Assembly (NCBI RefSeq): GCF_002095535.1
Contig: NZ_MLJI01000002.1
Span: 1,015,752-1,079,751 of the forward strand
DNA length: 64,000 nucleotides
Direction of reading: 5' to 3'
Source: Pantoea cypripedii
GTDB lineage: Bacteria; Pseudomonadota; Gammaproteobacteria; Enterobacterales; Enterobacteriaceae
Positions 37,820-53,898 of this stretch are shown piece by piece. Numbering within the stretch: the first letter of the stretch is position 1; each line of letters opens with the position of its first letter. Below the pieces are notes generated by a model. That model ran no database searches, was not told where the DNA came from, and was given only the letters and a program-made list of their open reading frames with translations. Both the position numbers and the translations under genes were made by a program.

Positions 37820-37833
37820 AACTGACCTCATAT

Positions 37834-38598
37834 TTAACGTGTAATACGGGTGGGGGCGGCTGCATGCATGGCTGAAACCACCCTTTCTGGTTCTTCATTC
37901 ATGGGCATGTTATCCCGGTCATGAATCGCATCGACGCCATCGCCATCCTGATCGACACTGCGGAAAAACGAGACGAAATCCTCCGTTGCCGGACCTGTTT
38001 CGGCCACCAGTTCGAAGGTCTTATTCCATGCATCCGGCAAGCTGATGCTGTTAACCAGCACCTGGGCAATCTGGTGACGGGAAATAACACCGTCTTTCGG
38101 GCTGCCATCACGTCGGTTATCCCCCTGGAGGGCGACCAGTTTCAGCTGATTCGCGGCGTTGTAATCGAACCAGCCGGGGCGCACGATGGTGTAGCGACAG
38201 CTACTGGCCCGCACCAGCCGTTCTGCCCGGCGTTTCCAGTCGTGCATGGTGCTTCTTACCGTGACACCAATCGCCGTCATCAGCGCGATGTGCACCGGAC
38301 GTCCGCCCAGGGCCTGAATAACATTTCTGACCCCACCGTAATCGACCTGCTCAAAACCCTGTTGCTCATAGCCATGGGTACCATGAGTAAAAATGATAGC
38401 GTCCACGTCTTTTACTGCCAGGTACAGCGAGTTGATATCAGTCAGGTCGCCTGTCACCTGTTCAATATCAGCAGGGAATTTACGGATATCCGCGTTTTTA
38501 CGTGTCAGCACTCGGGCCCTGTGTCCGTTATTCAGTGCTTCACTGACGACATGACGGCCAACGGAACCCGTTGCACCAATGATAAGTACCAGACTCAT
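37834..38598 (-). CDS. NAD(P)H-binding atypical SDR (NmrA/YwnB-like)
   Basis: 254 residues from the ATG at 38598, preceded by GAGGAACCTTT; the frame extends to 38634. The N-terminus LVLIIGATGSVGRHVVSEAL is the atypical SDR nucleotide motif; RARVLTRKN follows beta 2. The catalytic YxxxK is replaced by the atypical-SDR layout, so it may be a redox sensor or a flavin/ubiquinone-type reductase. First gene of a two-gene operon with the next SDR. Confidence 0.78.
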   Translation of the reverse strand: MSLVLIIGATGSVGRHVVSEALNNGHRARVLTRKNADIRKFPADIEQVTGDLTDINSLYLAVKDVDAIIFTHGTHGYEQQGFEQVDYGGVRNVIQALGGRPVHIALMTAIGVTVRSTMHDWKRRAERLVRASSCRYTIVRPGWFDYNAANQLKLVALQGDNRRDGSPKDGVISRHQIAQVLVNSISLPDAWNKTFELVAETGPATEDFVSFFRSVDQDGDGVDAIHDRDNMPMNEEPERVVSAMHAAAPTRITR

Positions 38599-38795
38599 AA
38601 AGGTTCCTCGTTTATATATTAAGAGCCATGTCATTAAGCTGGATTAAATATTTACGCTTAAATTTCAGATGTGATTAATTAATGGCAAGAGGCCAATAAC
38701 TAATAAAGTAATATTGTTTTTTTCGAATGAGGTTAATATAGCGGCTAATGAACAAAATTACTTTACATGTAATCCGCAAAACTCTATGAATTTTG

Positions 38796-38825
38796 CTCAT
38801 GAATGCCAGTATTGGCATTCATGAG
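38796..38825 (-). terminator. Strong hairpin downstream of the MFS exporter gene
   Basis: CTCATGAATGCCA (38796-38808) and TGGCATTCATGAG (38813-38825) form a perfect 13-bp stem with a GTAT loop, 25 bp after the transporter stop. It is followed on the minus strand by CAAAATTC and not by a U-run, so it may be a terminator without tract or an mRNA stabiliser. Confidence 0.5.
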
Positions 38826-38849
38826 TCCTGTCTGACGACAATAATGATG

Positions 38850-40256
38850 TTAATCAGGCTTTTTTGTCCGCCCCATCACCGTTAATACCAGCAGCAAAGA
38901 GAAAGCGATCAGCACCGCACCGGCGGTGAATGCCTTACCGGTCTGATGTATTAATAAGGGGACCGCAGCCAGATTCTCGCCACCTGCTTCCGCAGCAGCC
39001 ACCAACACGCTAAGACCCAGTGCTCCGCCGATTTGATGGGCAACATTCACGATGCCGGATGCCGCACCTGCATCCTTTGGTGCGACGCCATTAATACCGG
39101 ATGTGGTCAATGGACCCATGGCTCCGCCAATACCGATGCCGATGAGGATTGTGGGTAGCAACAGACCGCGAATAAAGGTCGAAGACGCATCCAGACGGCT
39201 AAGCATCAACATACCGATCAGGGCAAACAGCAAACTCAGAATTAATATGCGGCGGCTTCCCATGCGTTGAACCAGTTTAGGTACATTCAGCGCCACAACG
39301 AAATTGGTCAGCATTGCAGGCAAGAAAGCCAACCCTGCCTGAATGGGAGAATAATGTAAGACGCCCTGCATAAATTGCGTGCTGTAGAAAAAAAAGCCCA
39401 TGGCAGCACCGATATAAAGCAGACGTGCGGCATACGCGCCCGAACGTTCGGCACTTTTGAACAGATGCAGTGGCATTACCGGCTCATCAACTTTGCGCTC
39501 AATCAGGATGAACAAAACAAGTAATAAACTGCCCATCAGAAAAGAAAGCTGGGTAACTAAAGAACCCCAGCCCAGCGTACCGGAGGAGACGGTGCCATAA
39601 ACAATCCCGGTCATGCCCAGAGACGATAAGATGGATCCGGGGATATCCGCCTTGCCACTTTGTTTATCGGTTTCCTCGATATAGCGGGAAGCGGCGAAAA
39701 TCAAGACGATGCCAATCGGGACATTAACCATAAACCCCGCTCTCCAGGATACCAGTTCGGCTAAGACTCCCCCGATAACCAGACCCACGCTGGCGGATAA
39801 CCCTCCGGCGGCTGCATAGAGTGAAATCGCACGGGTTCTGGCTGGACCTGCCGGAAAGGTGATTTGCAGAATGGCTAAGGTTGAGGGGGCGAGGATTGCC
39901 GCGCCAACCCCCTGAATTGCGCGGGCGATAACCAGAAATGCAGCGTCAGGAGCGAGGCTGATCGCCAGCGAAGCCAGAGTAAAAATGGTTAACCCGATAT
40001 TCAGCATTCTTTTGCGGCCAAAGAGATCGCCTGCTTTCGCGCTAAGCAACAGCAAACCGCCAAACGTCAGTGCATAAGCGCTGGAAATCCAGGACAGACC
40101 TGCAAGACTGAAAGAAAGCTCCTGATGGATTTTTGGGAGTCCGGTTATTACCACCGAGTTATCAATAACTATCATCATATAACTGATGAGGATCAGGCTT
40201 AAAATGATAGTGGGGTGCTTTTCATGATGGCGAACAAGTGTTTGCTGAGCGGGCAT
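38850..40256 (-). CDS. MFS drug/solute exporter, DHA2 (EmrB/QacA) 14-TM family
   Basis: 468 residues from the ATG at 40256; the frame runs to 40358 without a ribosome site. About 14 membrane helices. Motif A GDLFGRKRMLNIG, motif D1-like IVIDNSVVITGLPKI in TM1 and motif C ASVGLVIGGVLAELVSWR in TM5 identify the proton-driven DHA2 antiporters. It is divergent from a LysR gene across a region with a long palindrome; that regulator probably controls it. Substrate unknown. Confidence 0.87.
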   Translation of the reverse strand: MPAQQTLVRHHEKHPTIILSLILISYMMIVIDNSVVITGLPKIHQELSFSLAGLSWISSAYALTFGGLLLLSAKAGDLFGRKRMLNIGLTIFTLASLAISLAPDAAFLVIARAIQGVGAAILAPSTLAILQITFPAGPARTRAISLYAAAGGLSASVGLVIGGVLAELVSWRAGFMVNVPIGIVLIFAASRYIEETDKQSGKADIPGSILSSLGMTGIVYGTVSSGTLGWGSLVTQLSFLMGSLLLVLFILIERKVDEPVMPLHLFKSAERSGAYAARLLYIGAAMGFFFYSTQFMQGVLHYSPIQAGLAFLPAMLTNFVVALNVPKLVQRMGSRRILILSLLFALIGMLMLSRLDASSTFIRGLLLPTILIGIGIGGAMGPLTTSGINGVAPKDAGAASGIVNVAHQIGGALGLSVLVAAAEAGGENLAAVPLLIHQTGKAFTAGAVLIAFSLLLVLTVMGRTKKPD

Positions 40257-40406
40257 TATTAATTCTCGTTTCCGAATCGCTGAGGGATTGAGAAAATTAT
40301 ACGGATTTACCCCCGCAGAAATTAGTCCGATAATTATGCATTCCCTTATAACCCACATTCATAAATGACGTTGCGGCTTTTTATTAATCACTGCCAGTGA
40401 ACGCTT

Positions 40407-40435
40407 ATGAATCTGATTCATAGGCCCTATGAATC
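40407..40435. promoter_or_regulatory. Palindromic LysR-type operator candidate
   Basis: GATTCATAGG, one base, then its exact inverse CCTATGAATC form a 21-bp perfect palindrome (40415-40435). It overlaps a second palindrome ATGAATC-T-GATTCAT (40407-40421). Three ATGAATC half-sites are therefore stacked about 60-85 bp before the LysR start, in the shared region with the MFS exporter. Confidence 0.6.
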
Positions 40436-40492
40436 ACTTCAACCAGTGATGATGTCATCATAGCGATATCTAAAATTCCATGATTTGAAAAC

Positions 40493-41392
40493 ATGTTTAA
40501 AGATGATTTGGCTGACCTCAGTGTGTTTGCACTGATAGCCGATGAGCAAAACTTTTCCAAAGCGGCGATCAAACTGGGTCTGTCGCAATCAGCCTTAAGT
40601 TATACCCTCAACAGATTAGAAGGGCGTTTAGGGGTTAAACTGCTCAACCGTACCACCCGAAGCGTCTCACCGACCCAGGCAGGAGAGAAGCTGCTTAGCA
40701 CCTTAAGACCGGCATTAAATGCAATCGCCGATGAACTGATTTCGCTGGATCAGCTACGTGAACGACCTTCAGGGTTAATTAGAATCACGGCACCCAAATA
40801 CCCGACGGAAAAGTATGTACTGCCGGTGGTGAGCGCTATGCTGCAAAACCACCCTGAAGTTTCGTTTGAAATTGATATCAATGCCTCCCTGAAGAACATT
40901 ATTGATGAGCGGTTCGACGCGGGCATTGCCTTACGTGAGCAGGTTGAAAAGGATATGGTGGCGATTCCGTTAGGGGGTGACCTGCGTATGGCTATTGTGG
41001 CGACGCCTGATTACTTTATCGACAAACAAATCCCCCGTGAGCCCGGTGACTTAAAAGATCACCGGTGCCTGGCCTATCGCCGCGACTCAACCGGGCGCAT
41101 TTATGGTTGGGAGTTTGAAAAGCAGGATAGTAAATATAAACACCGGATTGACGGGAATTTCACCGTTAATGATATCGACATCATGCTGAAGGCGGTGGGA
41201 TCAGGAAAGTGGATTTGTTGTATTCCTGAGCATTATGTTATCGACGAAATCAACGCAGGAAAGTACGTTCGGGTACTTGAAGACTGGTGCCCAAACTTCC
41301 CAGGTTATACGCTCTACTATTCAGGGCGGAAAGAATTAACTCTCGGATTCAGGTTGTTTATTGACATGATGAAAGAGGCTTGTCAGAGCTAA
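40493..41392 (+). CDS. LysR-family transcriptional regulator
   Basis: 299 residues. N-terminal winged helix: FALIADEQNFSKAAIKLGLSQSALSYTLNRLEGRLGVKLLNRTTRSVSPTQAG in shortened form (about 12-65), followed by the periplasmic-binding-protein-like effector domain (about 90-295). The YTLNRLE/RTTRSV segment groups it with the DsdC/YafC-like CrgA branch, which often represses or activates a divergent transporter. Here that is the DHA2 exporter. Confidence 0.9.
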   Translation: MFKDDLADLSVFALIADEQNFSKAAIKLGLSQSALSYTLNRLEGRLGVKLLNRTTRSVSPTQAGEKLLSTLRPALNAIADELISLDQLRERPSGLIRITAPKYPTEKYVLPVVSAMLQNHPEVSFEIDINASLKNIIDERFDAGIALREQVEKDMVAIPLGGDLRMAIVATPDYFIDKQIPREPGDLKDHRCLAYRRDSTGRIYGWEFEKQDSKYKHRIDGNFTVNDIDIMLKAVGSGKWICCIPEHYVIDEINAGKYVRVLEDWCPNFPGYTLYYSGRKELTLGFRLFIDMMKEACQS

Positions 41393-41577
41393 TCGCTCAA
41401 AATGATATGCACCATGATGTTGCGAGAAAACACGTTAGCAGTGCAGTGTGATCAGAGAATTGTGTGAGAATGCCCTTTATTGAATCTCTTTCTCAACGGG
41501 TATTAAGCCTGCCTTAAAACCCGGTGAGAATGGCATAAATATTGCTGTTTAAAAGAGTTCATGAAAAGGGCAGTGAT

Positions 41578-42549
41578 ATGATAAAGCAGCGTCTGGAAGA
41601 AAATCATTGGCGAGTAGATACGAAAGATTTCCCGGCAGAGAGAAAAAGTGATGTCTGGAAGATGGCAATGCAGAAAATATTTCTTGCGGCGCAATATTCA
41701 GAAGAGAAAAGTCTCAGCGGAGAGATTACCTACTTTAAAAGCCATATGGGGGTTGATTTTGTTAATCTGGCAGGATCGCCGCAAACATTGACGGGTAACT
41801 ATCCCTCTGCATCTGAAAGCCTTTGGCTCGCCATTTTGATTAAGGGTGAATCTCTTCTGGAGATTAATCGTGATCACCTCGATTTCAGTATAGGCAGTAT
41901 ACTGTATGGATCATGCAGTAATATTGACCATATTTGCCTGGAAATGGGAACAGATTTTAAAATTCTGACTATTGAGATCCCCAATACCGCTTTTTATAAG
42001 CGTCTGGTGAATCCGTTATCAATCAGAGCAGGGGTACTGCGATCAGAAAATGGTGTCAGCAGATTGCTTTACGCGTTTCTGGAGGCGGTGAGTAATGAAA
42101 TGGAACATCTGACACCTTCCTCCTTCCGCTCACTGGATAGCGCGTTGACTGAGCTGTTTCTTACCAGCCTGGCAGAACATATCTCGTTAAATAATTTCAG
42201 TAACTATGCAAACGCGCATGCATTTCAACGTCTTTGTGATTCTATCGAGCAACATATCAGCGATGAAAGCTTAAGCCTGGGGAAACTTGGCCTGCTTAAT
42301 AATGTTTCAGAACGCTATATTCAGAAAATTTTTCAGGAGGCGGGCCTTAAATTCAGCAACTATGTCAGGGAAAGACGAATCGATCTTTGTAAAAGGGACT
42401 TAGCGAATCCTAACTATAGAGGGCTATCAATATCAGAGATTTGCTTTCGCTGGGGATTTAGCGATATCGCTTATTTTAGTCGCGTTTTTAGTCAGAAAAT
42501 TGGCGTTTCCCCTCGGGTGTACCGGGAACAAGCCAGGAAAATTGATTGA
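41578..42549 (+). CDS. AraC-family transcriptional regulator
   Basis: 323 residues from the ATG at 41578, preceded by AAAAGGGCAGTGAT; an earlier ATG at 41542 is less likely. The N-terminal ~210 residues form an AraC_binding_2/FeaR-type effector domain. The C-terminal HTH pair includes LGKLGLLNNVSERYIQKIF and ISEICFRWGFSDIAYFSRVF with the final FSQKIGVSPRVYRE. It is convergent with the last gene of the RutA-like operon and is the only regulator bordering that block, so it is the candidate activator. Confidence 0.87.
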   Translation: MIKQRLEENHWRVDTKDFPAERKSDVWKMAMQKIFLAAQYSEEKSLSGEITYFKSHMGVDFVNLAGSPQTLTGNYPSASESLWLAILIKGESLLEINRDHLDFSIGSILYGSCSNIDHICLEMGTDFKILTIEIPNTAFYKRLVNPLSIRAGVLRSENGVSRLLYAFLEAVSNEMEHLTPSSFRSLDSALTELFLTSLAEHISLNNFSNYANAHAFQRLCDSIEQHISDESLSLGKLGLLNNVSERYIQKIFQEAGLKFSNYVRERRIDLCKRDLANPNYRGLSISEICFRWGFSDIAYFSRVFSQKIGVSPRVYREQARKID

Positions 42550-42570
42550 CGCCTGCGAATGACAGGCGTC
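42548..42570. terminator. Hairpin between AraC regulator and flavin reductase genes
   Basis: GACGCCTG / CAGGCGTC, a perfect 8-bp stem with a 7-nt loop, sits at the junction of two convergent genes; no T-tract. Confidence 0.45.
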
Positions 42571-42581
42571 GCAGATAGCGG

Positions 42582-43103
42582 TTAAATAAATCTTCCCTGA
42601 TGATAAATCATAGGAGAAACGTCAGGGTAGGACACCAGAGATAATGGTTCACCGATAATAATATTATGGTCACCTCCCTCAATACTTTGGTGAACTTTAC
42701 ATTCAATATGGGCAATACATCCGTCGATCAACGGGAGTCCGTACCTGCTCATAGTATGAGGTATTTGGCTAAACTTTCCTTTATCCCGTGACCCACATTG
42801 AAAGGCGACAGATTGCTGTGGCTGGGAAAGGATATTTACGGCAAATACCCCTTGTGTCAGCAGGCTACTAAGGGTGTTGCTACGCTTGTCCAGACTCACG
42901 AGTAATAACATCGGGTTGAGGGAAAGCGAGCAAAAGGCACTGACGGTGGTCCCGGTTGGCATACCTTGTGAATCAAGCGTTGTGATGACGGTGACACCAC
43001 TGGCAAATTGCGCCATACCCGCACGCCACTGTTGCGGTGAGATATCAGGGCTGGTATCCGCGATACCCGGCGTTGCCATGGCGAGCTGTGAATCTGGGCT
43101 CAT
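42582..43103 (-). CDS. Flavin reductase (RutF/HpaC-like)
   Basis: 173 residues. Flavin-reductase-like split-barrel: QWRAGMAQFASGVTVITTLD, GTTVSAFCSLSLNPMLLLVSLDKRSNTLS, FAVNILSQPQQ, and late GDHNIIIGEPLS (His of the NAD site). Such enzymes use NADH to make reduced FMN for a two-component monooxygenase; the partner here is the RutA-like protein two genes upstream. The usual Asp-His-His variation is present. It follows the M20 gene by 30 bp as the last gene of the operon. Confidence 0.87.
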   Translation of the reverse strand: MSPDSQLAMATPGIADTSPDISPQQWRAGMAQFASGVTVITTLDSQGMPTGTTVSAFCSLSLNPMLLLVSLDKRSNTLSSLLTQGVFAVNILSQPQQSVAFQCGSRDKGKFSQIPHTMSRYGLPLIDGCIAHIECKVHQSIEGGDHNIIIGEPLSLVSYPDVSPMIYHQGRFI

Positions 43104-43133
43104 ATAATTACCTGAAATAATTGATTGAAAATA

Positions 43134-44450
43134 TTAGGCTCGTCCGCAGATGGCCAGCATAGACAGTGCGTAAATCAAGGTGCATTGGCGCAAATCCTCT
43201 GGCGTGGGTGACTGCCGAGGGAAGCCAAATGTCACTGCTGGAATGTCATTCATATTGAAGACGTTATGATCCCGCCACATGCTTGAATAAACAGAATGTG
43301 CCAGCTTGAGCGGTTGACCCTGAACCTGTTGAACGGACGCGCCAAGCGCATGAACAAGCGGATAAACCTGCTCATCAGCACAAAAGCCATGCCTTACCAC
43401 ACTGGGATATAAGGAAAAACGTCCGGGCGAGCGCTCAAGTAAAAGCGCCTTCAGGGATCTTTCAATCACACTGGCTTTAACACCAGGAGGCAGTACGACA
43501 TCCAGATAAATATGGCAGATCTCAGTCCCTGCACCGAAAGTATGAGGCACGCCCCCCCGGATAGAATCAATCTGCGCTTTACCCACTGAAACACCCCCAG
43601 GCGTTTCTACGCGGAAGTCGCGCTCATAAGCCTGACACCATTCATGCAATGCTTCGGTGAGTATACCGATACGGTGCAGTGGATTTGGATGGGTACTGGA
43701 TTCACCCTCATGGAAAAGGGCTGGAGTAAAAACACCTTCGCCATAAAGGGTGATTCGGAATAATGCATAGCCGCTGGCTTGCCAGGTCACGCCAAAATCT
43801 GTGCCTTCTGCCACCACGGCATAATCCGGGCAAACACCACCATGATTAAACAAAAAATGTGTGCCTAACTCTTTACCCAGAAATTCAATCCCAGAACATG
43901 ATTCGACAGGTTCAGGGCCAATTTCGCCAGGTGAGGCCGTCAGATACACTTTGCCAGCGAGTTTTATCCCGGCTTTTTTCAGGGCCTTCGCGGCCATCAA
44001 AAAACAACTCATCGGGCCGCGGTCATTGGTTAATGCGTAGCCATGAAAATGACCGTCCTCAAGCCAGCATTGTTGCCACTCCGGCTGTGCCAGTGTTTCC
44101 GCTGTGAACTTGTCATTATCCAGCAGGTTGTCATACAGCGGGCTCTCTGTATCCAGATGCGCGTTGAACAGCAGATTAGCCCCTGCGCCATCACCGCCAT
44201 ATTCGGCCACAATATTAGGTCTGGCGGGATCCAGCGCGATTTTTCGCGCAGAAAACCCCTGCTCAAGACACCACTGATAGACGAAATTTGCCGCTTCAAG
44301 TTCGTGGCCCGAACGGCTTGGTATATTACTTAATGTTAAAGCAAGGTCGGTTAATTCCTGTGAATCAATGGCCTGCTGAATGGCTAATAATTCTTCTTCA
44401 CTGGTTTTATGAACCTCAGAATAATTCTGTTTTAGAATATCCTCAATCAT
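43134..44450 (-). CDS. M20-family metallohydrolase (peptidase/deacylase)
   Basis: 438 residues. M20 landmarks: SNIPSRSGHE near the N-terminus, zinc ligand region FNAHLDTESP (HxD, about residues 95-104), YALTNDRGPMSCFL (Asp ligand), and the dimerisation domain after about 210. The usual Glu-Glu pair (DEE) reads PGEIGPEP: one Glu is replaced by Gly unless the alignment shifts, so the mechanism may be altered or a different Glu is the base. Relatives hydrolyse N-acyl, N-carbamoyl or small-peptide bonds. The start overlaps the isochorismatase-family stop by 4 bp (ATGA). Confidence 0.82.
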   Translation of the reverse strand: MIEDILKQNYSEVHKTSEEELLAIQQAIDSQELTDLALTLSNIPSRSGHELEAANFVYQWCLEQGFSARKIALDPARPNIVAEYGGDGAGANLLFNAHLDTESPLYDNLLDNDKFTAETLAQPEWQQCWLEDGHFHGYALTNDRGPMSCFLMAAKALKKAGIKLAGKVYLTASPGEIGPEPVESCSGIEFLGKELGTHFLFNHGGVCPDYAVVAEGTDFGVTWQASGYALFRITLYGEGVFTPALFHEGESSTHPNPLHRIGILTEALHEWCQAYERDFRVETPGGVSVGKAQIDSIRGGVPHTFGAGTEICHIYLDVVLPPGVKASVIERSLKALLLERSPGRFSLYPSVVRHGFCADEQVYPLVHALGASVQQVQGQPLKLAHSVYSSMWRDHNVFNMNDIPAVTFGFPRQSPTPEDLRQCTLIYALSMLAICGRA

Positions 44451-45097
44451 CGCAGCCTCCGCGTCCCCAGAAGATGAAATGCGTCAATCGTTTCATCTGT
44501 TGCGACATTTATCGCAAAACTTTCCTCAAGAATTTCCAGGCTGACGTCATGAAAATCCTGCCGATAGGCGGCACATGCATCACCGATGATAAATACTGAA
44601 AAATCCCGGTGGTAGGCATCCCGAATGGTGGAGTCAACGCAGCATTCGGTGGTTAATCCACAAACTAACAGGGTGTCAATATTCTGTTTCTTTAATCTCT
44701 CAGCGAAGTCAGTTTCATAAAATGCACTGTACTTAGGTTTGTGAATAATATGGTCCCCCTGCTGAGGCAGGATTTCATAAAACTCTGACCCTTTGCTGTT
44801 ATCACGGCAGATTGCATAGAGCTCATCCGGATCAAAACCTTTGCGCAACATAAAGTTCTTCCAGGCTTCAGAATCCGTATCCGGATGTGTTTTAAGGCCG
44901 ATAAAATAAACCTGGATATTATTATCTCTTGCAGAGGAATATAAACGCTTCATATTGATAATGGCGGCGTTTACACTCGCCATATTCATATTGTATTTTG
45001 CACACTGGCCGTCCTCACTGGCAAAGTCAAACTGTAAATCCACAATGCATAGGGCGCTGCGTTCCGGGTCCAACCAGTCTTTTAGTTGTTCACTCAT
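44447..45097 (-). CDS. Isochorismatase-family cysteine hydrolase (RutB-like)
   Basis: 216 residues with the family triad: Asp20 (CIVDLQFDF), Lys120 (IIHKPKYSAFY) and Cys153 (GLTTECCVDST), including the cis-peptide region before the nucleophile. The closest well-known relative by layout is RutB, which cleaves ureidoacrylate peracid after RutA opens uracil; N-carbamoylsarcosine amidase and maleamate amidase are others. It overlaps the RutA-like gene upstream and the M20 gene downstream by 4 bp each, so the three are tightly coupled and act in sequence. Confidence 0.85.
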   Translation of the reverse strand: MSEQLKDWLDPERSALCIVDLQFDFASEDGQCAKYNMNMASVNAAIINMKRLYSSARDNNIQVYFIGLKTHPDTDSEAWKNFMLRKGFDPDELYAICRDNSKGSEFYEILPQQGDHIIHKPKYSAFYETDFAERLKKQNIDTLLVCGLTTECCVDSTIRDAYHRDFSVFIIGDACAAYRQDFHDVSLEILEESFAINVATDETIDAFHLLGTRRLR

Positions 45098-46176
45098 AAC
45101 GTTCCTTTAGGTAATGCAAGTGATGCTTTCAGAGGCTGATAAATATCACGACCAAATCGGGTAAGACCTTCGACATAATCCGGGAAAATCAGCATCACAC
45201 CATCGAGATCACAATCCCGAATAAGCGACTCGATTTGTTGCTGGCAGGTTTGCGCACTGCCAATTGCGGTATGGCTCATAAAGGCATTGCTGGCGCGTTC
45301 AAACATACTTTTTGCACTTTCAATATCCACGCCAAAGCTGCGCATCATGCCCTCAACAGCACCTATATCGAGTCCGTCGCGATAATATTGCGCCAGGGAT
45401 TGTGCCTCTTCATCGGTATCCGCGATGATCACGGTACACATGCAAAAAACTTTAATTTCGCTTTTATTCTGCAAGGCTATCTGGCGTGCCATCTGACTCA
45501 GTTTTTTTGTTTCAGACTCATCTTTACCACCAATAAAACAAGCATCAGCATTTTTTACCGTAAACGTCATTCCCTTCTCTGATTGGCCCGCACAGATTAA
45601 ATAGGGCCGTGGGGAAGAAACGGGTTTTGGATTAGAAACACAGGATTCAAGCTGGAAATATCGTCCCTCCATCGTCACCTCAGGTTCCGACCACAACCGT
45701 TTAATCGCCGTGGTCCATTCCTGTGTCATATCATAACGGTCATCGTGTGAGAGCGATGCATCCCAGGCTCCCATCTGCTTAAATTCGTCTTTGAATGAAC
45801 CTGAAACAATATTCAACCCTGCGCGACCTTTACTGATTTGATCGAGGGTGCTGATCATCTTCGCAGTCACTGCGGGATTGTGTAATCCCGCATGCATGGT
45901 GGCGATTAGCTTCGCATGCGAGGTACATTCGGCCAGACCCGCCATCATGGTGACTGATTCAAGGGATGTGCCCCAGTGATCCGTTTCACCGCCAAAACCC
46001 CGCCATTTGCCCATCGACATAATGAAGTCCAGCCCAATCTGGTCGGCAATGATCGCGGCCTGGCGGTTCTGTTCGTAGGATGCCGTCAATGGAGGGGTGT
46101 TTTTTGAAATGATCCATCCACCATTAGCAATCGGCAAAAAAACACCGAATTCAATTTTCTTCTCTGAATGTGACAT
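45094..46176 (-). CDS. RutA-like flavin-dependent monooxygenase (bacterial luciferase-like)
   Basis: 360 residues, the RutA length. Strong RutA-type signatures: FGVFLPIANGGWIISKN at the start, MGKWRGFGGETDHWGTSLES (RutA has LRGFGG), GRAGLNIVSGSFKDEF, LICAGQSEKGMTF, and a final GVMLIFPDYVEGLTRFG. Members use FMNH2 from a separate reductase and form flavin-N5-oxide or peroxide to open a C-N bond or oxidise heteroaromatic and sulfone compounds. No RutC, RutD, RutE or RutG gene accompanies it, so uracil is unlikely to be the substrate. First enzyme of the operon after the MFS gene (36-bp gap). Confidence 0.85.
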   Translation of the reverse strand: MSHSEKKIEFGVFLPIANGGWIISKNTPPLTASYEQNRQAAIIADQIGLDFIMSMGKWRGFGGETDHWGTSLESVTMMAGLAECTSHAKLIATMHAGLHNPAVTAKMISTLDQISKGRAGLNIVSGSFKDEFKQMGAWDASLSHDDRYDMTQEWTTAIKRLWSEPEVTMEGRYFQLESCVSNPKPVSSPRPYLICAGQSEKGMTFTVKNADACFIGGKDESETKKLSQMARQIALQNKSEIKVFCMCTVIIADTDEEAQSLAQYYRDGLDIGAVEGMMRSFGVDIESAKSMFERASNAFMSHTAIGSAQTCQQQIESLIRDCDLDGVMLIFPDYVEGLTRFGRDIYQPLKASLALPKGTL

Positions 46177-46212
46177 GTGATCTCCTGCATATTGTTTGGT
46201 TATAAAAAATGA

Positions 46213-47472
46213 TTATTGGGAAGCCAGTTTTTTATGCTCTTGCTTAATCCGTGTCGGTCTTCTCATCGGAATGGTCAGCAGGAAAATGGCAAAGGGAACC
46301 GCGGTATAAATTAAAAATGCAGTGGAGAAACTGCCTTCAGCATCCTTAATCATACCCGCGACCAGAGGGCCAAAACATGCCACTGTAGAAATCAGGTTCA
46401 TCACTGAAAATAATTCCAGATAAGGCTGACGTCCAAAATATTCAGTTAGCAATACGCTACTGGATAGAAATGTCATGCCATACCCGACACCGATGCCGAT
46501 GGTGAATAATGTGAGCATAAACAATGAACTGGAGTAACTTATTGCAATCATGCCTAAAATAATGAAGAACAGGCTGATGAGGAGCATTTTTTTGGCCTGA
46601 ATAAATTCGCCAAGAATACCGCCACCCACACGCGAGAATGCATTAATGAAAGCCTGGGTACTGAGAAGGCTGCCAGCAAGTGTCGCTGAAAATCCCTGCT
46701 CAGTGATATGCGCAACGGCGAAGCTATTGACGGTGATGCCACAAAGCAGGAATGAGGTGTAGGCAGCGGCGATAACATAGAACTGCCATGTTTTAAATGC
46801 TTCTTTCGCTGACCAGGCACCGCGAGAGTTTGCCGCATCATCTGCGTGATGGCCCTGAGTACGTTGGTTGATGCGTTCACTGTGTGCCTGCTCAGCTGCA
46901 TTTTCCTTAATCATGACAATAGCAATGACCAGCATAACAACCATGGCGATGCCACTGACTGCCCAGTGCATGCGCCAGCTATGCCATACGCTGACGGAGA
47001 GGAAGTAAAGCAGGGGGCCGACAACGCCACCAAGGCCGCCAATAAAGAAATAGATGCCAAAGATCAGTGTTTGTCGTTCGAACAGTCGGCTCAAAATGTA
47101 AGTGCCAGGTACCGTCGCGACAAAACTGAATCCAACGCCTAATAATACCGTTCCCAGGAAATAGATATTTAAAGTGTGAAGAGAATACAGGCAGCTAAAA
47201 CCTGCGGCCAGGATAATGCATCCTAATACTAACGTCGCCCTTACACCAAAGCGACGAATAATCATCGCGGGTAAGTAACTGGAAAGACCACAGGCTAGCC
47301 CGAGTAAAGTAAACCCTAAGCCTGCGCTTGCCCAACTCCAGTTAAACTCCTGCACCATGGCAGGAAGGACAACCCCTAACGATGTGAATGTTGATGCTGT
47401 AATAATAAAAAACAGTAAGCTGAAAATAACGAGCATTGACCAACAATAGACCTTGCCGATGTCATCATTCAT
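46213..47472 (-). CDS. MFS transporter, probable substrate importer of the RutA-like operon
   Basis: 419 residues with 12 predicted helices. The N-terminus FITASTFTSLGVVLPAMVQEFNWSWASAGLGFTLLGLACGL and RRFGVRATLVLG loop fit the monocarboxylate/oxalate-formate-like (MCT/OFA-type) branch of the MFS. It lies between the Tsx-like channel and the RutA-like enzyme in one operon. Substrate inferred to be the ring compound or a product. Confidence 0.85.
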   Translation of the reverse strand: MNDDIGKVYCWSMLVIFSLLFFIITASTFTSLGVVLPAMVQEFNWSWASAGLGFTLLGLACGLSSYLPAMIIRRFGVRATLVLGCIILAAGFSCLYSLHTLNIYFLGTVLLGVGFSFVATVPGTYILSRLFERQTLIFGIYFFIGGLGGVVGPLLYFLSVSVWHSWRMHWAVSGIAMVVMLVIAIVMIKENAAEQAHSERINQRTQGHHADDAANSRGAWSAKEAFKTWQFYVIAAAYTSFLLCGITVNSFAVAHITEQGFSATLAGSLLSTQAFINAFSRVGGGILGEFIQAKKMLLISLFFIILGMIAISYSSSLFMLTLFTIGIGVGYGMTFLSSSVLLTEYFGRQPYLELFSVMNLISTVACFGPLVAGMIKDAEGSFSTAFLIYTAVPFAIFLLTIPMRRPTRIKQEHKKLASQ

Positions 47473-47509
47473 TGGTTTGTTCCTTTTGAATGTTACCTGT
47501 CGATAATGG

Positions 47510-48331
47510 TTAGTGTGCGAAATAGGAGAAGCTATAACGAATCATCAAACCATAACTAAACTGATTCGTTCTGTAGTAAGGCGTATCTTCTATTTTATAT
47601 TTGTTCTTAATGGGTTCAATCACTGCACCGACCCATAAATGGCCAGGCTGGTATCCTAATGCCTGACCAAGGTCGTAATGTATTTCAGGTTTGAAATCGA
47701 GCATCACTGGATTATCACCCTGACCGAACGTCATATCGAACGTCCCCACTACACGGAAATCACCGATTGATGTTGTGAACGGATATCCGTAATCAATATG
47801 CAGACGGCGATCATCCCAGCCTTTGTGCGGATTATGTTCGAAATAATAAATGGTACGTAACCAGGAAAAACCTGGAATCTGCCAGTCAAGCGCAATGCCA
47901 GGGAAGTAACTGTTGCTATATCCCTTAGTGCGTGAAACCCAGAGCGCGGCTGAGGCATCTTTAAAAATGCCCCAGGAGATGTCCTTATTAAGATTCTTTG
48001 CCAGACTCAGTCTTGGAACCGCTTTGTAATAATAGGTGCTGGTATCCCCAACATAATCGCCTTGCAGTGAACGCTGCCATATTCCATAGACATACATGTC
48101 ACCAATACTGTAGTCACCCCATGCTTCAACAACGGGGGAGACCGTTTTATAAGGGTCGACTTTATTACCACTGAAGGCGTAAAGGGAGGTGTCCAGAGAT
48201 TGGAAATTAACAAAAGGTTTTGCCTGTGCATAAGACATCGTCAAACATGTCGCCACACATAAAAACAATAACTTATACTGTATCTTCAAAATATTAATTC
48301 CTGTTATCTGTGAATTGAAATCTTCTTGCAA
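47510..48331 (-). CDS. Tsx/OmpK-like nucleoside-specific outer-membrane channel
   Basis: 273 codons; the actual start could be a later in-frame codon, because the hydrophobic signal (KLLFLCVATCLTMSYAQA) begins at about residue 19. The mature protein shows a 12-strand barrel pattern: FVNFQSLDTSLYAFSGN, WGDYSIGDMYVYGIWQ, WGIFKDASAALWVSRTKGYSNSYF, and ends YGLMIRYSFSYFAH. The Channel_Tsx family takes up nucleosides and related small ring compounds. Its place at the head of an operon with a RutA-like enzyme supports a heterocyclic substrate. Confidence 0.78.
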   Translation of the reverse strand: MQEDFNSQITGINILKIQYKLLFLCVATCLTMSYAQAKPFVNFQSLDTSLYAFSGNKVDPYKTVSPVVEAWGDYSIGDMYVYGIWQRSLQGDYVGDTSTYYYKAVPRLSLAKNLNKDISWGIFKDASAALWVSRTKGYSNSYFPGIALDWQIPGFSWLRTIYYFEHNPHKGWDDRRLHIDYGYPFTTSIGDFRVVGTFDMTFGQGDNPVMLDFKPEIHYDLGQALGYQPGHLWVGAVIEPIKNKYKIEDTPYYRTNQFSYGLMIRYSFSYFAH

Positions 48332-48660
48332 AGGGAATCACGGTTAACTAACTAACAATGTTTTAATTTTCACTCTGCCTGTTTTTTGTTCTTCATTAAT
48401 GCTCTTCTCACAGCCCGGCTATGGCTAACCGAAGATAAAAGTCTTCCGGATTAACCTGTGGCCGAGTATAGGGCAGGAGTTGAAAATAAAGTTGGAAAAT
48501 CACGCACGAAATCTTGACTGTACTTGTGCCGCGAAGGTTGTTAGTTTGCTCAGAAATATGTCGCAGATGCTGTTGTTCGTAGCAGAGGGATATGATTATA
48601 TAACGAATGTCAGGTACCGATTATCATATCAATCTCTTATTGATGAATGTGGCCAATATT
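48332..48660. promoter_or_regulatory. Divergent promoter region between the RutA-like operon and the ABC importer
   Basis: About 330 bp separating the Tsx-like gene and the ABC permease, both part of what looks like one uptake/catabolic unit. A TTG-initiated frame at 48480-48683 exists but its product matches nothing and overlaps the permease start; I do not count it. No clear operator was found. Confidence 0.4.
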
Positions 48661-49689
48661 ATGCCGAAGTCCATGGTATTTAGATTCAGATCTTGCTTTA
48701 ATCTGTGTGTAAAATATCTTTTCCTTATGCTTGTTGTCACTGCATTCATCTTTTTTTTCCTCAGACTGGCACCACTTGACCCAACGGGTTTGCTAATGTC
48801 ACCCATGTCTACACCGGCTGACATTTTGCACATAAAACATCGGTTAGGTCTTGATCTGCCGATTTGGAAACAATATCTCTATTGGGTTGACGCATTGTTG
48901 CATGGCAACGCAGGGATGTCTTATGTCAGCGGCGAACAGGTCACTGCGTTGATTTTACACGCTGTGCCAGTGACATTCACTTTGATCACTATCACATTGA
49001 TTGTTAGCGTTGCTCTGGCATTTTTTTTTGCCATTCTGGCATTTTATTATCGCGGAAATCGGCTGTCAGAGTGGGTCGATCATTTAAATAATTTGTTTCT
49101 TTGCATTCCTGATTTCCTTTGGTCAATCCTATTGGTGTTCATTTTTGGCATCAGTTTTCATCTGCTCCCGACATTTGGCTTAATTGATCCTGCAACTGAC
49201 TTAACATTGAATGATAAACACGGGCTTTTCGTTGCAATAATCCTTGGTGGACCATCGGCATGGTTAAGCCTGGCTGCGCATTTATTGTTGCCTGCAATGG
49301 CATTGATTATGGGTATTACACCACTTCAGATGAAAAATCTGTTTAACCAGTTAACACGTATTTATCAAAGGGACTTCATTTATTATGCACAGCTGCGTGG
49401 GCAGACAGCGTTTCAGTTGTTGATAAGCCAGGCCATTCCCAACACCCTGGCGGGCGCTTTGTCTTTGTTATCCAATCAGGCGAGTATGCTCGTGGGAGGA
49501 ACGTTACTGGTGGAGACATTATTTGGCCTCCCAGGCTTGGGAATGCTGATGATTAAGGCGTTAGGTAATCAGGATCTGCCGCTGATTGAGGGCATTGCAT
49601 TATGCTACATATTATTAGTGATATCGATCCAGCTCATTACCGGCACATGCATGTACCTGGTCGATCCGCGCCGCAGGGGAAATGTATAA
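48661..49689 (+). CDS. Peptide/nickel-type ABC transporter permease (DppB-like)
   Basis: 342 residues from the ATG at 48661; starts at 48607 or 48673 are also possible, none with a strong ribosome site. Six membrane segments. The family features are LRLAPLDPTGLLM after TM1, HRLGLDLPIWKQYLYWVDALLHGNAGMSYVSGEQV, and the coupling loop FIYYAQLRGQTAFQLLISQAIPNTL (EAA-type with ARLRG variant). The C-terminus ends YLVDPRRRGNV, typical of DppB. Its stop shares a base with the next start (TAATG). Confidence 0.85.
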   Translation: MPKSMVFRFRSCFNLCVKYLFLMLVVTAFIFFFLRLAPLDPTGLLMSPMSTPADILHIKHRLGLDLPIWKQYLYWVDALLHGNAGMSYVSGEQVTALILHAVPVTFTLITITLIVSVALAFFFAILAFYYRGNRLSEWVDHLNNLFLCIPDFLWSILLVFIFGISFHLLPTFGLIDPATDLTLNDKHGLFVAIILGGPSAWLSLAAHLLLPAMALIMGITPLQMKNLFNQLTRIYQRDFIYYAQLRGQTAFQLLISQAIPNTLAGALSLLSNQASMLVGGTLLVETLFGLPGLGMLMIKALGNQDLPLIEGIALCYILLVISIQLITGTCMYLVDPRRRGNV

Positions 49690-50546
49690 TGTTCAAAAGC
49701 AAATCCCCCGTAACTGCCTCTGCGCCAAACTGGCGTCTGCGTTGTTCGCTGCTGGCGGGTTCTTTCATTTTATTGTTGGGATTCCTTGCGCCAATATTGA
49801 TTCAGCAGGACCCAAATACACAAAATCTGAACGCGGTGTTACTTCCCCCTGTCTGGCAAACGGGTGGCAGCTTTCAATACCCGCTAGGCACCACCGCGTT
49901 GGGTGAAAATATCCTTGCCCAATTAATCTATGGAACACGAACTGCAATCCTGATTGCTTTGGGAGCGGCCAGTGGCTGCGCGGTGATGGGCATCGGATTA
50001 GGCATTGTGGCGGGCTACATGGGAGGATTGATTGAAAAGGGAATTCTGCTGCTGGTGGAGTTTTGGATGACGTTTCCGGCGGTGATTTTGGCACTTCTTC
50101 TGGTTGTCACTTTCTCTCCGGGTCTGCTCAGTGTTGTCATAGCGATCGTGCTGGTGGACTGGACCCGTTTTTGCCGTGTTATCCATGCCGAAGTCTCAGA
50201 ATTGAAATCCAGAGAGTTTATCTATGTGGCGAAGTTAATGGGAGCTTCGCAACTCAGCATAATCCTTCGTGATATTATACCCTCGTTAATTCCAGGCATT
50301 ATTATGTTATTTAGTACGGAGATGGCCATATCCGTATTAATTGAAAGCACACTCTCTTTCGTTGGCGTTTCAGTTGACCCTGCGCAACCCTCCTGGGGGG
50401 CGATGATTGCGCATGGGATGGATTATGCATATGCCAGTCCCTGGCTGCTATTACAACCTGCACTCTGCATTGTATTTTTTGTACTTATTTGTATGACCTT
50501 CAATGATGGGATGACCAGAAATGTTATCCCGCATAAGGAACAATAA
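49689..50546 (+). CDS. Peptide/nickel-type ABC transporter permease (DppC-like)
   Basis: 285 residues from the ATG at 49689, coupled to the preceding stop. N-terminal TM then QDPNTQNLNAVLLPP...YPLGTTALGENILAQLIYGTRTAILIALGAA, the classical DppC opening. The coupling loop REFIYVAKLMGASQLSIILRDIIPSLIP is clear, and the end FNDGMTRNVIPHKEQ corresponds to the usual GDxLRDxLDP end. Partner of the DppB-like subunit in the inner-membrane pore. Confidence 0.88.
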   Translation: MFKSKSPVTASAPNWRLRCSLLAGSFILLLGFLAPILIQQDPNTQNLNAVLLPPVWQTGGSFQYPLGTTALGENILAQLIYGTRTAILIALGAASGCAVMGIGLGIVAGYMGGLIEKGILLLVEFWMTFPAVILALLLVVTFSPGLLSVVIAIVLVDWTRFCRVIHAEVSELKSREFIYVAKLMGASQLSIILRDIIPSLIPGIIMLFSTEMAISVLIESTLSFVGVSVDPAQPSWGAMIAHGMDYAYASPWLLLQPALCIVFFVLICMTFNDGMTRNVIPHKEQ

Positions 50547-52357
50547 TGAACACTGCGACTGTGGGTCTGGTAAATATTAAGCCAATTGCCCTGCATGTGA
50601 ATGACCTGAATGTTGCCCTGCAACGAAATGGTCAGCGGTTGCAGGCACTCCATAATATTAACTTCAAGCTGCATCAGGGAGAAATTCTCGGCCTGGTCGG
50701 AGAATCAGGTGCGGGCAAGAGTTTGTTATTGAAAACACTGGTCAATCAGCTTCCACCCGGTTTTGTGGGCAATCAGGATGCGATACGATTCTTCCCTGAC
50801 GACGTGCCCGCAGGTAATCGTCTGAAATTAGGCAGTGAGGTGACCTTCATTCCTCAGGATCCAATGAATGCTTTAAATCCGATACATACCGTTATGCGCC
50901 ATTTTCACGAGCAATTGAGTTTACTCCGGCTCCCGGCGGTTGCAATTCGTGAGAAAGCCATTGATATACTGAGCGCGGTTAACTTATCGCACCCCGAGGA
51001 GTTATTATCCTGCTATCCCCATCAGTTATCCGGGGGAATGGCGCAGCGTATTCTGATTGCTTTAGCATTCGTCACTGAGCCCAGATTGGTTATTTGTGAT
51101 GAAATAATGACAGCTCTGGATGTTATCAACCAGCAGCATGTGATTACGATGATTGCAAAAATGCAGGCGCGCTATGGCACCAGCATTTTATTCGTCACGC
51201 ATGATCTGGCCTTCGCTACCCAGCATTGCCATCAATTAATGGTTATGTATGCGGGCGAGATTATCGAAACTGGCACAGCCAGCGATGTAATGAATCATCC
51301 CGCCCATCCTTATACTCGCGCACTGATAAAGGCCAGACCTTCACTGAATCCGGACTGGCAATATATTGCTGGCATCCCCGGAAACATGCCAACCCTTGAA
51401 GCACTAAACGCTGAGTCTCTGTGTCGATTTGCCCCACGCTGTGACTGCCAGCAACCCCGTTGTCTCACACAGCCATTGCCACGGAATAAAGAGATAAAAT
51501 GTCACTTTAGTGCCCAATTGCCTGTTGTCGCTGCTGCTGTCGATGCCGCTCCCCAATTATCACCGCATCAATTCTCCGGGCATTCAATCCCTTTTTTGCG
51601 CGTGGAAGGAATGGGTAAAGAATATGTCGAGCGGAAAGGGTGGCGTAATGTCATAAAGCCGGTACTTTCCGATGTTAATTTTACTGTTTCGCCTGGTGAG
51701 TTTATTGGTTTACTCGGTGAAAGCGGCAGTGGTAAATCAACCCTGGCGCGTTTGATGATGGGGTTGGAATCACCGACTCAGGGGCGGATTTTGCTCAATG
51801 GCAAGGTTCTGCCAAAAACCGGGCGCAGTATGTCGGACAGTATCCAGCTGATTTTCCAAAATAACGCCCAGGCACTGAATCCCCATCGTAATGTGGCTAA
51901 TATTTTGACGCAGGGAATGGAAAACAAACCCTTTCTGCGCAGTGAACGTAAACAACGAGCTGAAGAGTTAGCTGATCTGGTTGGATTATCACACAAGTTG
52001 CTGGATAAATATCCCCAGCAGCTTTCTGGTGGACAACGTCAGCGGGTAAATATTGGGCGTGCGCTTTGCACGATGCCACAATTGCTGATTGCCGATGAAA
52101 TTGTTTCCGGGCTGGATGTTTCTATTCAGGCGCGAATTCTTAATTTACTTCTGGCGTTGCGTAAGAAACAAAAGTTCGCCTTATTATTGATTTCACATGA
52201 TCTTAATGTTGTAAATTATTTATGTAGTAAAGTGATTGTGCTGCATAAAGGGTTTATCGCGGAGCAGGGTAACACAAAGCAGGTACTGCATGAGCCAGAA
52301 AGCCTGTTAACCCAGGAGCTGATTAAGAACAGTCATACCGGGAGTACGATGGCATGA
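50546..52357 (+). CDS. ABC transporter ATPase, two fused domains (DppD-DppF-like)
   Basis: 603 residues with two complete nucleotide-binding domains. First: Walker A GESGAGKS (about 52-59), signature LSGGMAQR, Walker B LVICDEIM, and the oligopeptide-type C-terminal Fe-S-like cysteine cluster region CRFAPRCDCQQPRC. Second: Walker A GESGSGKS (about 390), signature LSGGQRQR, Walker B LLIADEIV. Fusions of this kind (YejF/GsiA-type) serve peptide, glutathione and small-peptide importers. Starts on the preceding stop (TAATG). Confidence 0.92.
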   Translation: MNTATVGLVNIKPIALHVNDLNVALQRNGQRLQALHNINFKLHQGEILGLVGESGAGKSLLLKTLVNQLPPGFVGNQDAIRFFPDDVPAGNRLKLGSEVTFIPQDPMNALNPIHTVMRHFHEQLSLLRLPAVAIREKAIDILSAVNLSHPEELLSCYPHQLSGGMAQRILIALAFVTEPRLVICDEIMTALDVINQQHVITMIAKMQARYGTSILFVTHDLAFATQHCHQLMVMYAGEIIETGTASDVMNHPAHPYTRALIKARPSLNPDWQYIAGIPGNMPTLEALNAESLCRFAPRCDCQQPRCLTQPLPRNKEIKCHFSAQLPVVAAAVDAAPQLSPHQFSGHSIPFLRVEGMGKEYVERKGWRNVIKPVLSDVNFTVSPGEFIGLLGESGSGKSTLARLMMGLESPTQGRILLNGKVLPKTGRSMSDSIQLIFQNNAQALNPHRNVANILTQGMENKPFLRSERKQRAEELADLVGLSHKLLDKYPQQLSGGQRQRVNIGRALCTMPQLLIADEIVSGLDVSIQARILNLLLALRKKQKFALLLISHDLNVVNYLCSKVIVLHKGFIAEQGNTKQVLHEPESLLTQELIKNSHTGSTMA

Positions 52358-53886
52358 TTTCCTTATCCCGTCGTCGTTTTATGATGCTCAGTGCGCTAAG
52401 TTTTGCCGATCCTTTCAGGATGTTGTCTGCTTCTGCTTTATCGGTAAAAGACACGCTAACGATCGCCTATCCAACCGATATTGTTAGTTGGGAGCCAAAT
52501 CAAACGAACCCTCTCCAGTCGGCAATTTTGAAGTGTGTTTATGACCAACCGTTAAACATTTCATCAGAACTGGCGTTGTCACCGGGCATCGTTAAAAGCT
52601 ATGCCTGGCTTGATGATAACAATCAAATTCTGCAACTGGTGTTTCAGGAAGGGGTGGTGTTTCATAACGGTCAACCTCTGACCTCAGAAGATTTTCATTT
52701 TTCATTTTTTGAACGCTTGAAAAAGTTTCCCGATTCGCTGCTCGCGGGGATCTGGGGCGGTATCATGCGGATTGAGACGCCAACACCGTATTCCGCAATT
52801 GTTTACTTCTCCTGGCCGATGGCGACTGCGCCTGCGATGATGGCTGATATTCCGGCTTACCTGCTGCCTAAACGCTATTATCAGGCGGTCGGGGAAAATG
52901 GTTTTCGCGCACATCCGGTGGGTTCTGGCCCTTATAAAGTGACGACAAGACAGCCGGGTATGCATATTATCCTGGACGCTTACGAGAACTATTGGCAATC
53001 CCCCCCGGCGTTTAAACGCGTCATCTTTCTGATTGCCCCGGATAAAATGACCCGGCTGGCCATGCTTGAGACGGGTGAAGCGGATTTAAGTCTTAACTTT
53101 TCAACCTGGGAAGCGGATAAAATCGCGAAGCTGAATAATCTCAAGGCAAATTATCAACCCACTTCAGGGATAATGTTATTGCAGATGGTTAATCAGGGGG
53201 CGATGCAGGATAAGCGAGTCCGACTGGCATTACACCATGCTATTGATAAGCCATTAATTTCAAAAGCGCTTTTTCAGGGCAAGGCGCTACCCATTGCTAC
53301 GCCAGCAGGTAAGGGTATGGCGGGATATGACCCTGAGTTTAATTTCCCTTACGATCCTGAGCTGGCGATAAAGCTACTGGCGGAAGCCGGGTATCACAGC
53401 AAACGGCCGCTGTTATTAAATTTCTATACCACAAAAGGTGCGCTTGCTAACGACCTGGAGATTGCTAAAGCGATTTCTCAGCAATGGGATCATATCGGCA
53501 TCAGAACGCAATTGGTTATTTTGACGCCAGCGATGATTGCGGATTATCAAAATCAGAAAAAATTCGATGGCCCTTTATTGCAGGGCTGGAATCCCGTAGC
53601 GGGGGACCCCGCAACCTATTCAGGACTTCTGCTCAATCAAAATGTCAGTATGGGTTTGTGGAAGAGTGATGATCTGATTCAACCCCTGGCAGCATTAGAT
53701 AAAATGACAAATTATGCGCAACGCATCGATGCATATAAAAAATTTGATCGCTGGCAGGTTGAACAGGGATATTCGATACCGTTATTGCAGAATATATCCG
53801 TACTGGTCGCAAAAAATGACCTGTTTATTCCTCCTAATCCAGGGGGCATTCTTGCGCCTTATCACATACGTAAGGCGGGGATTTAA
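52354..53886 (+). CDS. ABC transporter periplasmic solute-binding protein, family 5
   Basis: 510 residues. The N-terminus SLSRRRFMMLSALSF has a twin-arginine-like signal. Family 5 landmarks: LTIAYPTDIVSWEPNQTNPLQ, SPGIVKSYAWLDDNNQILQLVFQEGVVFHNGQPLTSEDF, HPVGSGPYKVT, RLALHHAIDKPLISKALFQGKALPIATPAGKGMAGYDP. Family 5 proteins bind peptides, nickel, glutathione or other amide-rich ligands. Its start overlaps the ATPase stop (ATGA), so the four importer genes form a compact operon. Confidence 0.9.
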   Translation: MISLSRRRFMMLSALSFADPFRMLSASALSVKDTLTIAYPTDIVSWEPNQTNPLQSAILKCVYDQPLNISSELALSPGIVKSYAWLDDNNQILQLVFQEGVVFHNGQPLTSEDFHFSFFERLKKFPDSLLAGIWGGIMRIETPTPYSAIVYFSWPMATAPAMMADIPAYLLPKRYYQAVGENGFRAHPVGSGPYKVTTRQPGMHIILDAYENYWQSPPAFKRVIFLIAPDKMTRLAMLETGEADLSLNFSTWEADKIAKLNNLKANYQPTSGIMLLQMVNQGAMQDKRVRLALHHAIDKPLISKALFQGKALPIATPAGKGMAGYDPEFNFPYDPELAIKLLAEAGYHSKRPLLLNFYTTKGALANDLEIAKAISQQWDHIGIRTQLVILTPAMIADYQNQKKFDGPLLQGWNPVAGDPATYSGLLLNQNVSMGLWKSDDLIQPLAALDKMTNYAQRIDAYKKFDRWQVEQGYSIPLLQNISVLVAKNDLFIPPNPGGILAPYHIRKAGI

Positions 53887-53898
53887 CAGAGAACTGGC

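Follow-up and report, generated by a model that had tools for sequence, protein, structure and literature searches.

A probably laterally acquired gene cassette of Pantoea cypripedii as a candidate route for the oxidative opening of fused uracil-type heterocycles

We analyzed a stretch of 64,000 nucleotides from Pantoea cypripedii (RefSeq assembly GCF_002095535.1, contig NZ_MLJI01000002.1, positions 1,015,752 to 1,079,751 of the forward strand; this whole stretch is referred to as the window) and found that it carries an inserted cassette of eleven genes (41393..53898) built around an oxygenase resembling RutA, the flavin-dependent enzyme of uracil breakdown. Our preferred reading, to which we give a probability of about 0.4, is that the cassette imports a heterocycle, presumed to combine a uracil-type ring with a fused aromatic ring, and then acts on it by oxidative opening, hydrolysis of the ureido group, and aromatic deamination. 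The cleavage of the uracil part would probably be related to, yet distinct from, known uracil breakdown.

Six of the genes lie on the minus strand and are transcribed in the following order: a Tsx-like outer-membrane channel (47510..48331, TTG start as listed; Pfam PF03502, Channel_Tsx), a major facilitator superfamily (MFS) carrier (46213..47472; Pfam MFS_1), a RutA-like oxygenase of the LLM class dependent on flavin mononucleotide (FMN) (45094..46176; Pfam Bac_luciferase, NCBIfam, and PDB matches), an isochorismatase-family cysteine amidohydrolase (44447..45097; Pfam Isochorismatase, NCBIfam, and PDB matches), an M20-fold hydrolase of 438 amino acids, placed in the 5-nitroanthranilate aminohydrolase branch by fold and sequence comparison (43134..44450), and a flavin reductase, the presumed supplier of reduced FMN (FMNH2) (42582..43103; PF01613, Pfam Flavin_Reduct). 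The oxygenase and isochorismatase genes overlap by 4 nucleotides (nt), as do the isochorismatase and M20 genes, and the remaining intergenic gaps measure 30-37 nt. The open reading frame list and Pfam agree with the initial annotation, which had described six genes of these kinds at 42582-48331. The unit that it described is correct as far as it goes but is in fact larger, comprising also an AraC-family regulator (41542..42549, plus strand, TTG start as listed; best NCBIfam model FeaR, 102.5 bits against a cut-off of 199) and, divergent from the operon, a four-gene ATP-binding cassette (ABC) importer (48607-53886, plus strand), all in one 12.5-kb insertion. The importer consists of two permeases of the Opp/Nik type (48607..49689 and 49602..50546; profile matches), a double-domain ATPase (50546..52357; NCBIfam match), and a substrate-binding protein of family 5 (SBP5) (52354..53886; Pfam) with a twin-arginine-like start, SRRRF, judged by eye.

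The boundaries of the cassette were given by an empty site. By blastn, the window segments 33762-41392 and 53899-61139 match a genome of the same genus at 93%, and because only 5 nt separate the two segments there, the 12,506 bp at 41393-53898 are extra in the genome of the window. The left edge lies directly behind a LysR gene and the right edge 12 nt behind the binding-protein gene; the GC fraction of the insert is 0.460, compared with 0.507 and 0.542 in the flanks. A close relative of the M20 protein was found in 1 of 61 genomes of the genus, namely that of the window, all other matches reaching at most 28.9 bits. As none of the 60 other genomes holds a close copy, gain of the cassette is likelier than its deletion from the genome with the empty site, and we conclude that it was probably acquired laterally from elsewhere. 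A 98% identical M20 protein is present in a record source-named Citrobacter freundii; megablast found no near-identical cassette in PLSDB plasmids or in Escherichia coli genomes.

The oxygenase scores 264.7 bits on the RutA model TIGR03612, below the equivalog cut-off of 498.3, whereas the RutA of the same genome, serving as a positive control, scores 713.2 bits. A PDB search returned RutA as the nearest structure (E about 1e-56). As judged from sequence, the protein is thus RutA-related but not RutA itself. In the accessible part of a review (PMC7662398), the O2 site of RutA is described as lined by L65, V136, F224, T105, and N134, and mutants at T105, N134, and V136, with the exception of T105S, as inactive. 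We mapped these residue numbers onto the oxygenase by alignment, with an offset of 19 deduced from residue identities. The equivalents of T105, N134, V136, and F224 (T93, N122, V124, and F214) are all retained, and M53, which replaces L65, is the sole difference among these five. T93, N122, and V124 do not vary in 120 listed homologues, of which 118 also have F214; the position of RutA W139 holds Ala in 82 and Ser in 38. The retained residues support an oxygenolysis of the flavin-N5 type as the putative reaction, and the small residues in place of W139 suggest a roomier substrate pocket. In a tree of the oxygenases, rutA fell on a very long branch, with a warning from the tool, and no claim made here rests on that tree.

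The best model for the amidohydrolase was biuret amidohydrolase NF050097 (86.3 bits, cut-off 370), and on the RutB model TIGR03614 it scores 73.0 bits (cut-off 377.95), compared with 437.5 for the RutB of the same genome. The top PDB entry, 6xix, is labelled only as a cysteine hydrolase; a putative amidase, biuret hydrolase, and RutB rank lower. Alignment to 6xix revealed that D20, K120, and C153, which we take to be the catalytic triad of isochorismatase-type amidohydrolases, are intact. Biuret hydrolase and RutB each cleave urea-type groups.

No Pfam model matched the M20 protein at E 1e-3, and its best score on NCBIfam models of the ArgE/DapE type was 49.1 bits against a cut-off of 217.6. 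Its one strong solved relative is 5-nitroanthranilate aminohydrolase, an enzyme of the M20 fold that takes an amine off an aromatic ring, with ~33% identity, of which it keeps the GEI motif and the WRD and RGG stretches. For these reasons, the sub-cut-off scores and this kinship, we do not favor an ordinary M20 deacylase or peptidase. The order proposed in the initial annotation is kept for the oxygenase and the isochorismatase-type step that follows it, but its final amide or acyl hydrolysis by M20 is replaced by a putative aromatic deamination. Its statement that RutC, RutD, RutE, and RutG homologues are missing while an M20 protein is present stands, as NCBIfam and Pfam scans gave no match to any of the four among the proteins of 41393-53898. 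Taken as a whole, its interpretation is partly supported.

We envisage the following route. A small heterocycle would pass the outer membrane through the Tsx-like channel and be taken into the cell by the MFS carrier, the SBP5 ABC importer, or both. The flavin reductase would provide FMNH2 to the oxygenase, which, via a flavin-N5 (per)oxide, could cleave a uracil-type ring at its amide, this ring being fused to an aromatic one as in lumazines, alloxazines/lumichrome, or quinazolinediones, to give an ortho-ureido aromatic acid. The isochorismatase-family enzyme may then hydrolyze the ureido group, yielding the ortho-amino acid, CO2, and NH3, and the M20 enzyme may hydrolytically remove the aromatic amine, leaving an ortho-hydroxy acid. 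We infer a fused-ring substrate because deamination by the M20 enzyme would be sensible only with the amine on an aromatic ring. The net gain from the cassette of the window would be nitrogen. The Tsx-like channel passes the gathering score of PF03502 (32.5 bits against 27.2), and the best PDB match of its predicted structure is Tsx with thymidine (1tlw; E 7e-5, TM-score 0.55-0.59).

The gene arrangement recurs across loci selected through the oxygenase only. We compared 73 loci chosen by exact words of the oxygenase alone, an uneven sample in which some loci are ended by contig ends, and scored neighbors by tblastn (E 1e-8) within 9 kb of the oxygenase. An MFS homologue was found in 50 of the 73 loci and a flavin reductase homologue in 27. 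Where the oxygenase is at least 60% identical (n = 21), we detected Tsx in 18 loci, MFS in 20, isochorismatase in 3, M20 in 2, ABC permeases in 2, and flavin reductase in 1; at 52-60% (n = 40), the counts were isochorismatase 38, MFS 30, M20 28, flavin reductase 24, and Tsx 1; below 52% (n = 12, all actinobacteria), they were isochorismatase 9, flavin reductase 2, and M20 0. Oxygenase and isochorismatase stand as a pair in most of the actinobacterial loci seen. Source names of the listed relatives include pyrimidine oxygenase, peptidase M20, and formylaminopyrimidine deformylase, among others.

Relatives of the operon were found in Acinetobacter, Paraburkholderia, and Caulobacter. All eleven cassette genes occur in Acinetobacter puyangensis (locus L010). 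On plasmid p2DB053 of Acinetobacter baumannii (L090), the operon is accompanied by the regulator and by ABC permease and ATPase genes, and the stretch stops before any binding-protein gene. IS66 and IS3 elements, as well as a group II intron, interrupt the p2DB053 cassette (L090:2305-18214), in which the MFS gene is short (279 amino acids). The Paraburkholderia graminis plasmid pPHS1_P (L091) carries the six-gene operon and the regulator, and Tenebrionibacter (L021) carries the channel, oxygenase, isochorismatase, regulator, and ABC importer, with MFS, M20, and flavin reductase unmatched nearby. The AraC homologues of these four loci (44-52% identity) are placed alike and share 32-38% identity with the AraC protein of the Caulobacter cluster (L039). 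Across the order, the oxygenase was found at E 1e-100 or better in 4 of 394 genomes, that of the window counted.

Genes for Rieske, TauD, extradiol-dioxygenase, and formamidase-type proteins often accompany the operon relatives. In the 56 loci L026-L081, matches at E 1e-15 that span 60% or more of the query comprised TonB receptors (30 loci), TauD-type dioxygenases (25), Rieske oxygenases, 4,5-DOPA-type extradiol dioxygenases, and VOC proteins (15 each), and formamidase-type proteins (13). The Kozakia plasmid pKB16680_1 has similar extended-cluster genes plus a PDR/VanB-type reductase, and Novosphingobium pSA1 has part of these gene kinds; with the enzymes added in these two versions and in that of Caulobacter, the remaining ring could be broken. 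The binding protein of the actinobacterial locus L068 is of the NMT1 type (Pfam), and all 12 actinobacterial loci, counting L068, have a homologue upstream of the oxygenase; a PDB search with the actinobacterial binding protein gave no match. A search with the M20 protein gave weak matches (1e-15) in 6 of 396 actinobacterial-phylum genomes, and no isochorismatase was seen by eye in ~4 kb of each. In four stretches (L101-L104), M20 proteins of that phylum, 27-29% identical to the query, neighbor a fumarylacetoacetate-hydrolase-like gene and an LLM oxygenase distinct from the present one. In an Enterobacteriaceae metagenome-assembled genome (L019:4465-9846), the oxygenase adjoins genes resembling GTP cyclohydrolase II, RibD, a methyltransferase, BKACE, and GGT, and these genes stand where Xenorhabdus locus L012 has the channel and the carrier. 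The gene readings at L012, L019, and the actinobacterial M20 loci were made by eye and may contain wrong frames. We considered the riboflavin-like genes of L019 and a riboflavin-synthase-like gene of L012 as a hint at flavins and gave them no weight.

Several observations weigh against a fused uracil-type substrate and its deamination. R289 of 5-nitroanthranilate aminohydrolase, the residue mutated in 5k8p, corresponds to A307 in the M20 protein, and A, S, D, or G occupies this position in all 29 rows of an alignment that contains near-duplicates (L010, L090, and P0125) and in which the L039 row starts short. Because R289 is lost, the M20 substrate must differ and deamination is uncertain. Further, the channel was present in 15 and the carrier in 16 of 16 Xenorhabdus loci, and isochorismatase or M20 was found in 0 of 16 within 9 kb; the Erwinia psidii and Providencia loci resemble them, isochorismatase and M20 being absent within 9 kb. 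An M20 match was absent in the one Xenorhabdus genome searched, and a whole-genome search for the isochorismatase in Erwinia psidii, two Xenorhabdus, Tenebrionibacter, and Providencia found a close relative only in Tenebrionibacter (208.8 bits; its second match reached 54.7 bits, and the other genomes at most 47.4). This implies that the oxygenase can serve alone. The features of its active site are not diagnostic of a fused-ring substrate either, since four oxygenases from clusters linked to RidA share the invariant O2-pocket residues and have Ser at the W139 position. As for transport, the predicted structure of the Tsx-like channel is of low confidence (mean predicted local distance difference test score 66.6), and the closest matches of the SBP5 protein are opine- and peptide-type binders (5u4o, 107.7 bits; the agrocinopine-binding AccA, 94-96 bits), not nucleobase binders. 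Finally, a parallel with the lumichrome catabolism of Nocardioides simplex is one of chemistry and not of proven homology, because the accessible text of PMC12746152 gives no protein families for LumI and LumM.

The kinship of the oxygenase with RutA, its nearest characterized relative, the place of RutB among the nearest relatives of the amidohydrolase, and the presence of a Tsx-like channel would also suit an unfused modified pyrimidine or pyrimidine nucleoside (e.g. a 5-substituted uracil) that the oxygenase opens, on which the isochorismatase acts as RutB does, and which loses an acyl or amino side group to the M20 enzyme. LLM relatives with 39-40% identity adjoin RidA in 4 of 4 plasmids, and thiamin-pyrimidine genes in 2 of 4, which fits this alternative; however, an aromatic aminohydrolase would be needless for a non-aromatic aminoacrylate product, and RutC, RutD, and RidA are unannotated in three M20-bearing plasmid stretches and were not found in the cassette of the window. 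We therefore consider an unfused pyrimidine unlikely. A second, diverged rut operon for uracil use would account for the shared oxygenase, amidohydrolase, and flavin reductase families, but scores of 264.7 and 73.0 bits against cut-offs of 498.3 and 377.95, in a genome whose own RutA, B, C, D, and G all pass, and the lack of RutC, D, E, and G in the cassette lead us to reject it as highly improbable.

A different role is suggested by the loci closest to that of the window, in which Tsx accompanies the oxygenase in 18 of 21 cases, isochorismatase in 3, and M20 in 2: the oxygenase might break an amide of a toxic plant, insect, or microbial compound, with the hydrolases as an optional salvage. 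The sporadic spread of the oxygenase (4 of 394 genomes) and the presence among its hosts of Xenorhabdus, which is insect-associated and whose loci as a rule lack both hydrolases, are in keeping with such detoxification. The binding-protein-dependent importer of the cassette and the TonB receptor in 30 of the 56 loci, some with ring-cleaving enzymes, resemble nutrition instead, but because the MFS protein could be an exporter, the import genes are not decisive, and we regard detoxification as having a rather small chance of being correct. The similarity of the M20 protein to 5-nitroanthranilate aminohydrolase, together with a nitroreductase in the Kozakia stretch, raises the question of whether 5-nitroanthranilate itself, or a nitro- or anthranilate-type compound close to it, is the substrate of the cassette, with the M20 enzyme acting first. 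The loss of R289 and the gene order, in which M20 is the third enzyme, weaken this proposal; further, several loci have the oxygenase and isochorismatase without M20, and a gene of the 5-nitrosalicylate dioxygenase type is absent among the eleven of the cassette, so that we consider it improbable. The opening of a fused uracil-type ring followed by aromatic deamination is the reading that we prefer.

Just outside the insertion lies a xanthine-oxidase-like dehydrogenase with an XdhC gene (53940-59338; cytochrome c, 2Fe-2S, and molybdopterin subunits, by eye); at E 1e-150, only 2 of the 60 other genomes of the genus contain relatives of its large subunit. We set this molybdenum-hydroxylase operon (53940-57939) aside as a part of the pathway because it lies outside the insertion and is present in the empty-site genome. 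Elsewhere, the window contains a Dak1-Dak2 dihydroxyacetone kinase (6805-8553), a large Fe-S flavoprotein that includes a domain of the dihydropyrimidine dehydrogenase type (15983-17950), and a double FecCD permease accompanied by a TonB receptor (19802-24917).

It is possible, if rather doubtful, that the cassette represents a new oxidative route for fused pyrimidinediones (lumazines, lumichrome-type fragments, and quinazolinediones) carried as a mobile unit in unrelated proteobacteria, in which the last step would be a metal-dependent deamination by the M20-fold enzyme. If so, flavin-N5 oxygenases of the RutA type would reach fused rings, and a further candidate M20-fold aromatic aminohydrolase would join an unusual kind of enzymatic aromatic substitution. 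The cassette would then also provide a sharply bounded, testable gene set for the turnover of vitamin-derived or plant or insect heterocycles.

Compared with known systems, the cassette shares with the rut operon an FMN oxygenase of the LLM class whose O2-pocket residues agree apart from L65, an isochorismatase-family amidohydrolase, and a flavin reductase, but each of the three falls below the equivalog cut-offs, and in place of RutC, D, E, and G there are M20, the Tsx-like channel, the MFS and SBP5 ABC transporters, and AraC. The rutABCD-rutG genes of the same genome lie on its largest contig, and their products score 254.5 (RutC, cut-off 169.1), 366.2 (RutD, 238.5), and 786.4 bits (RutG, 758.65). 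There, rutABCD runs straight into rutG (L107:3569-8047), with no space for rutE or rutF between rutD and rutG, so that a reductase for this RutA would need to come from elsewhere. The four RidA-linked clusters (Pantoea SOD02, Rhizobium ACO-34A, Cupriavidus NH9, and Paracoccaceae La 6 plasmids) likewise have a RutA-like LLM oxygenase at 39-40% identity, that of SOD02 also scoring below the RutA cut-off (272.6 bits); unlike the cassette, all four have RidA and three of them an alpha/beta-hydrolase or RutD-like gene, their ABC importers are different, and no isochorismatase is annotated in the four stretches. We note that, of these loci (L097-L100), L098 and L099 hold thiaminase II, deaminase-type, and SsuB/ThiY-type importer genes and are perhaps a route of thiamin-pyrimidine breakdown. 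The 5-nitroanthranilate pathway of Bradyrhizobium sp. JS329, as given in the accessible part of PMC10306065 and with structures in PDB 5k8m-5k8p, differs in that the cassette M20 protein lacks R289, stands behind an oxygenase and an amidohydrolase, and has no 5-nitrosalicylate dioxygenase beside it. In PMC12934955, a word search did not find the names of related enzymes. The closest chemical precedent is the lumichrome catabolism of Nocardioides simplex, for which the accessible text of PMC12746152 (with a commentary, PMC12752717, likewise seen in part) describes opening of the uracil ring, hydrolysis of urea, and removal of the ring amine by LumH, LumI, and LumM. These are the same three chemical steps in the same order as proposed for the cassette, although LumH is a hydrolase whereas the first enzyme of the cassette is an FMN oxygenase, and the P450, thiamin pyrophosphate-dependent decarboxylase, and Rieske genes of the lum pathway have no counterparts in the cassette.

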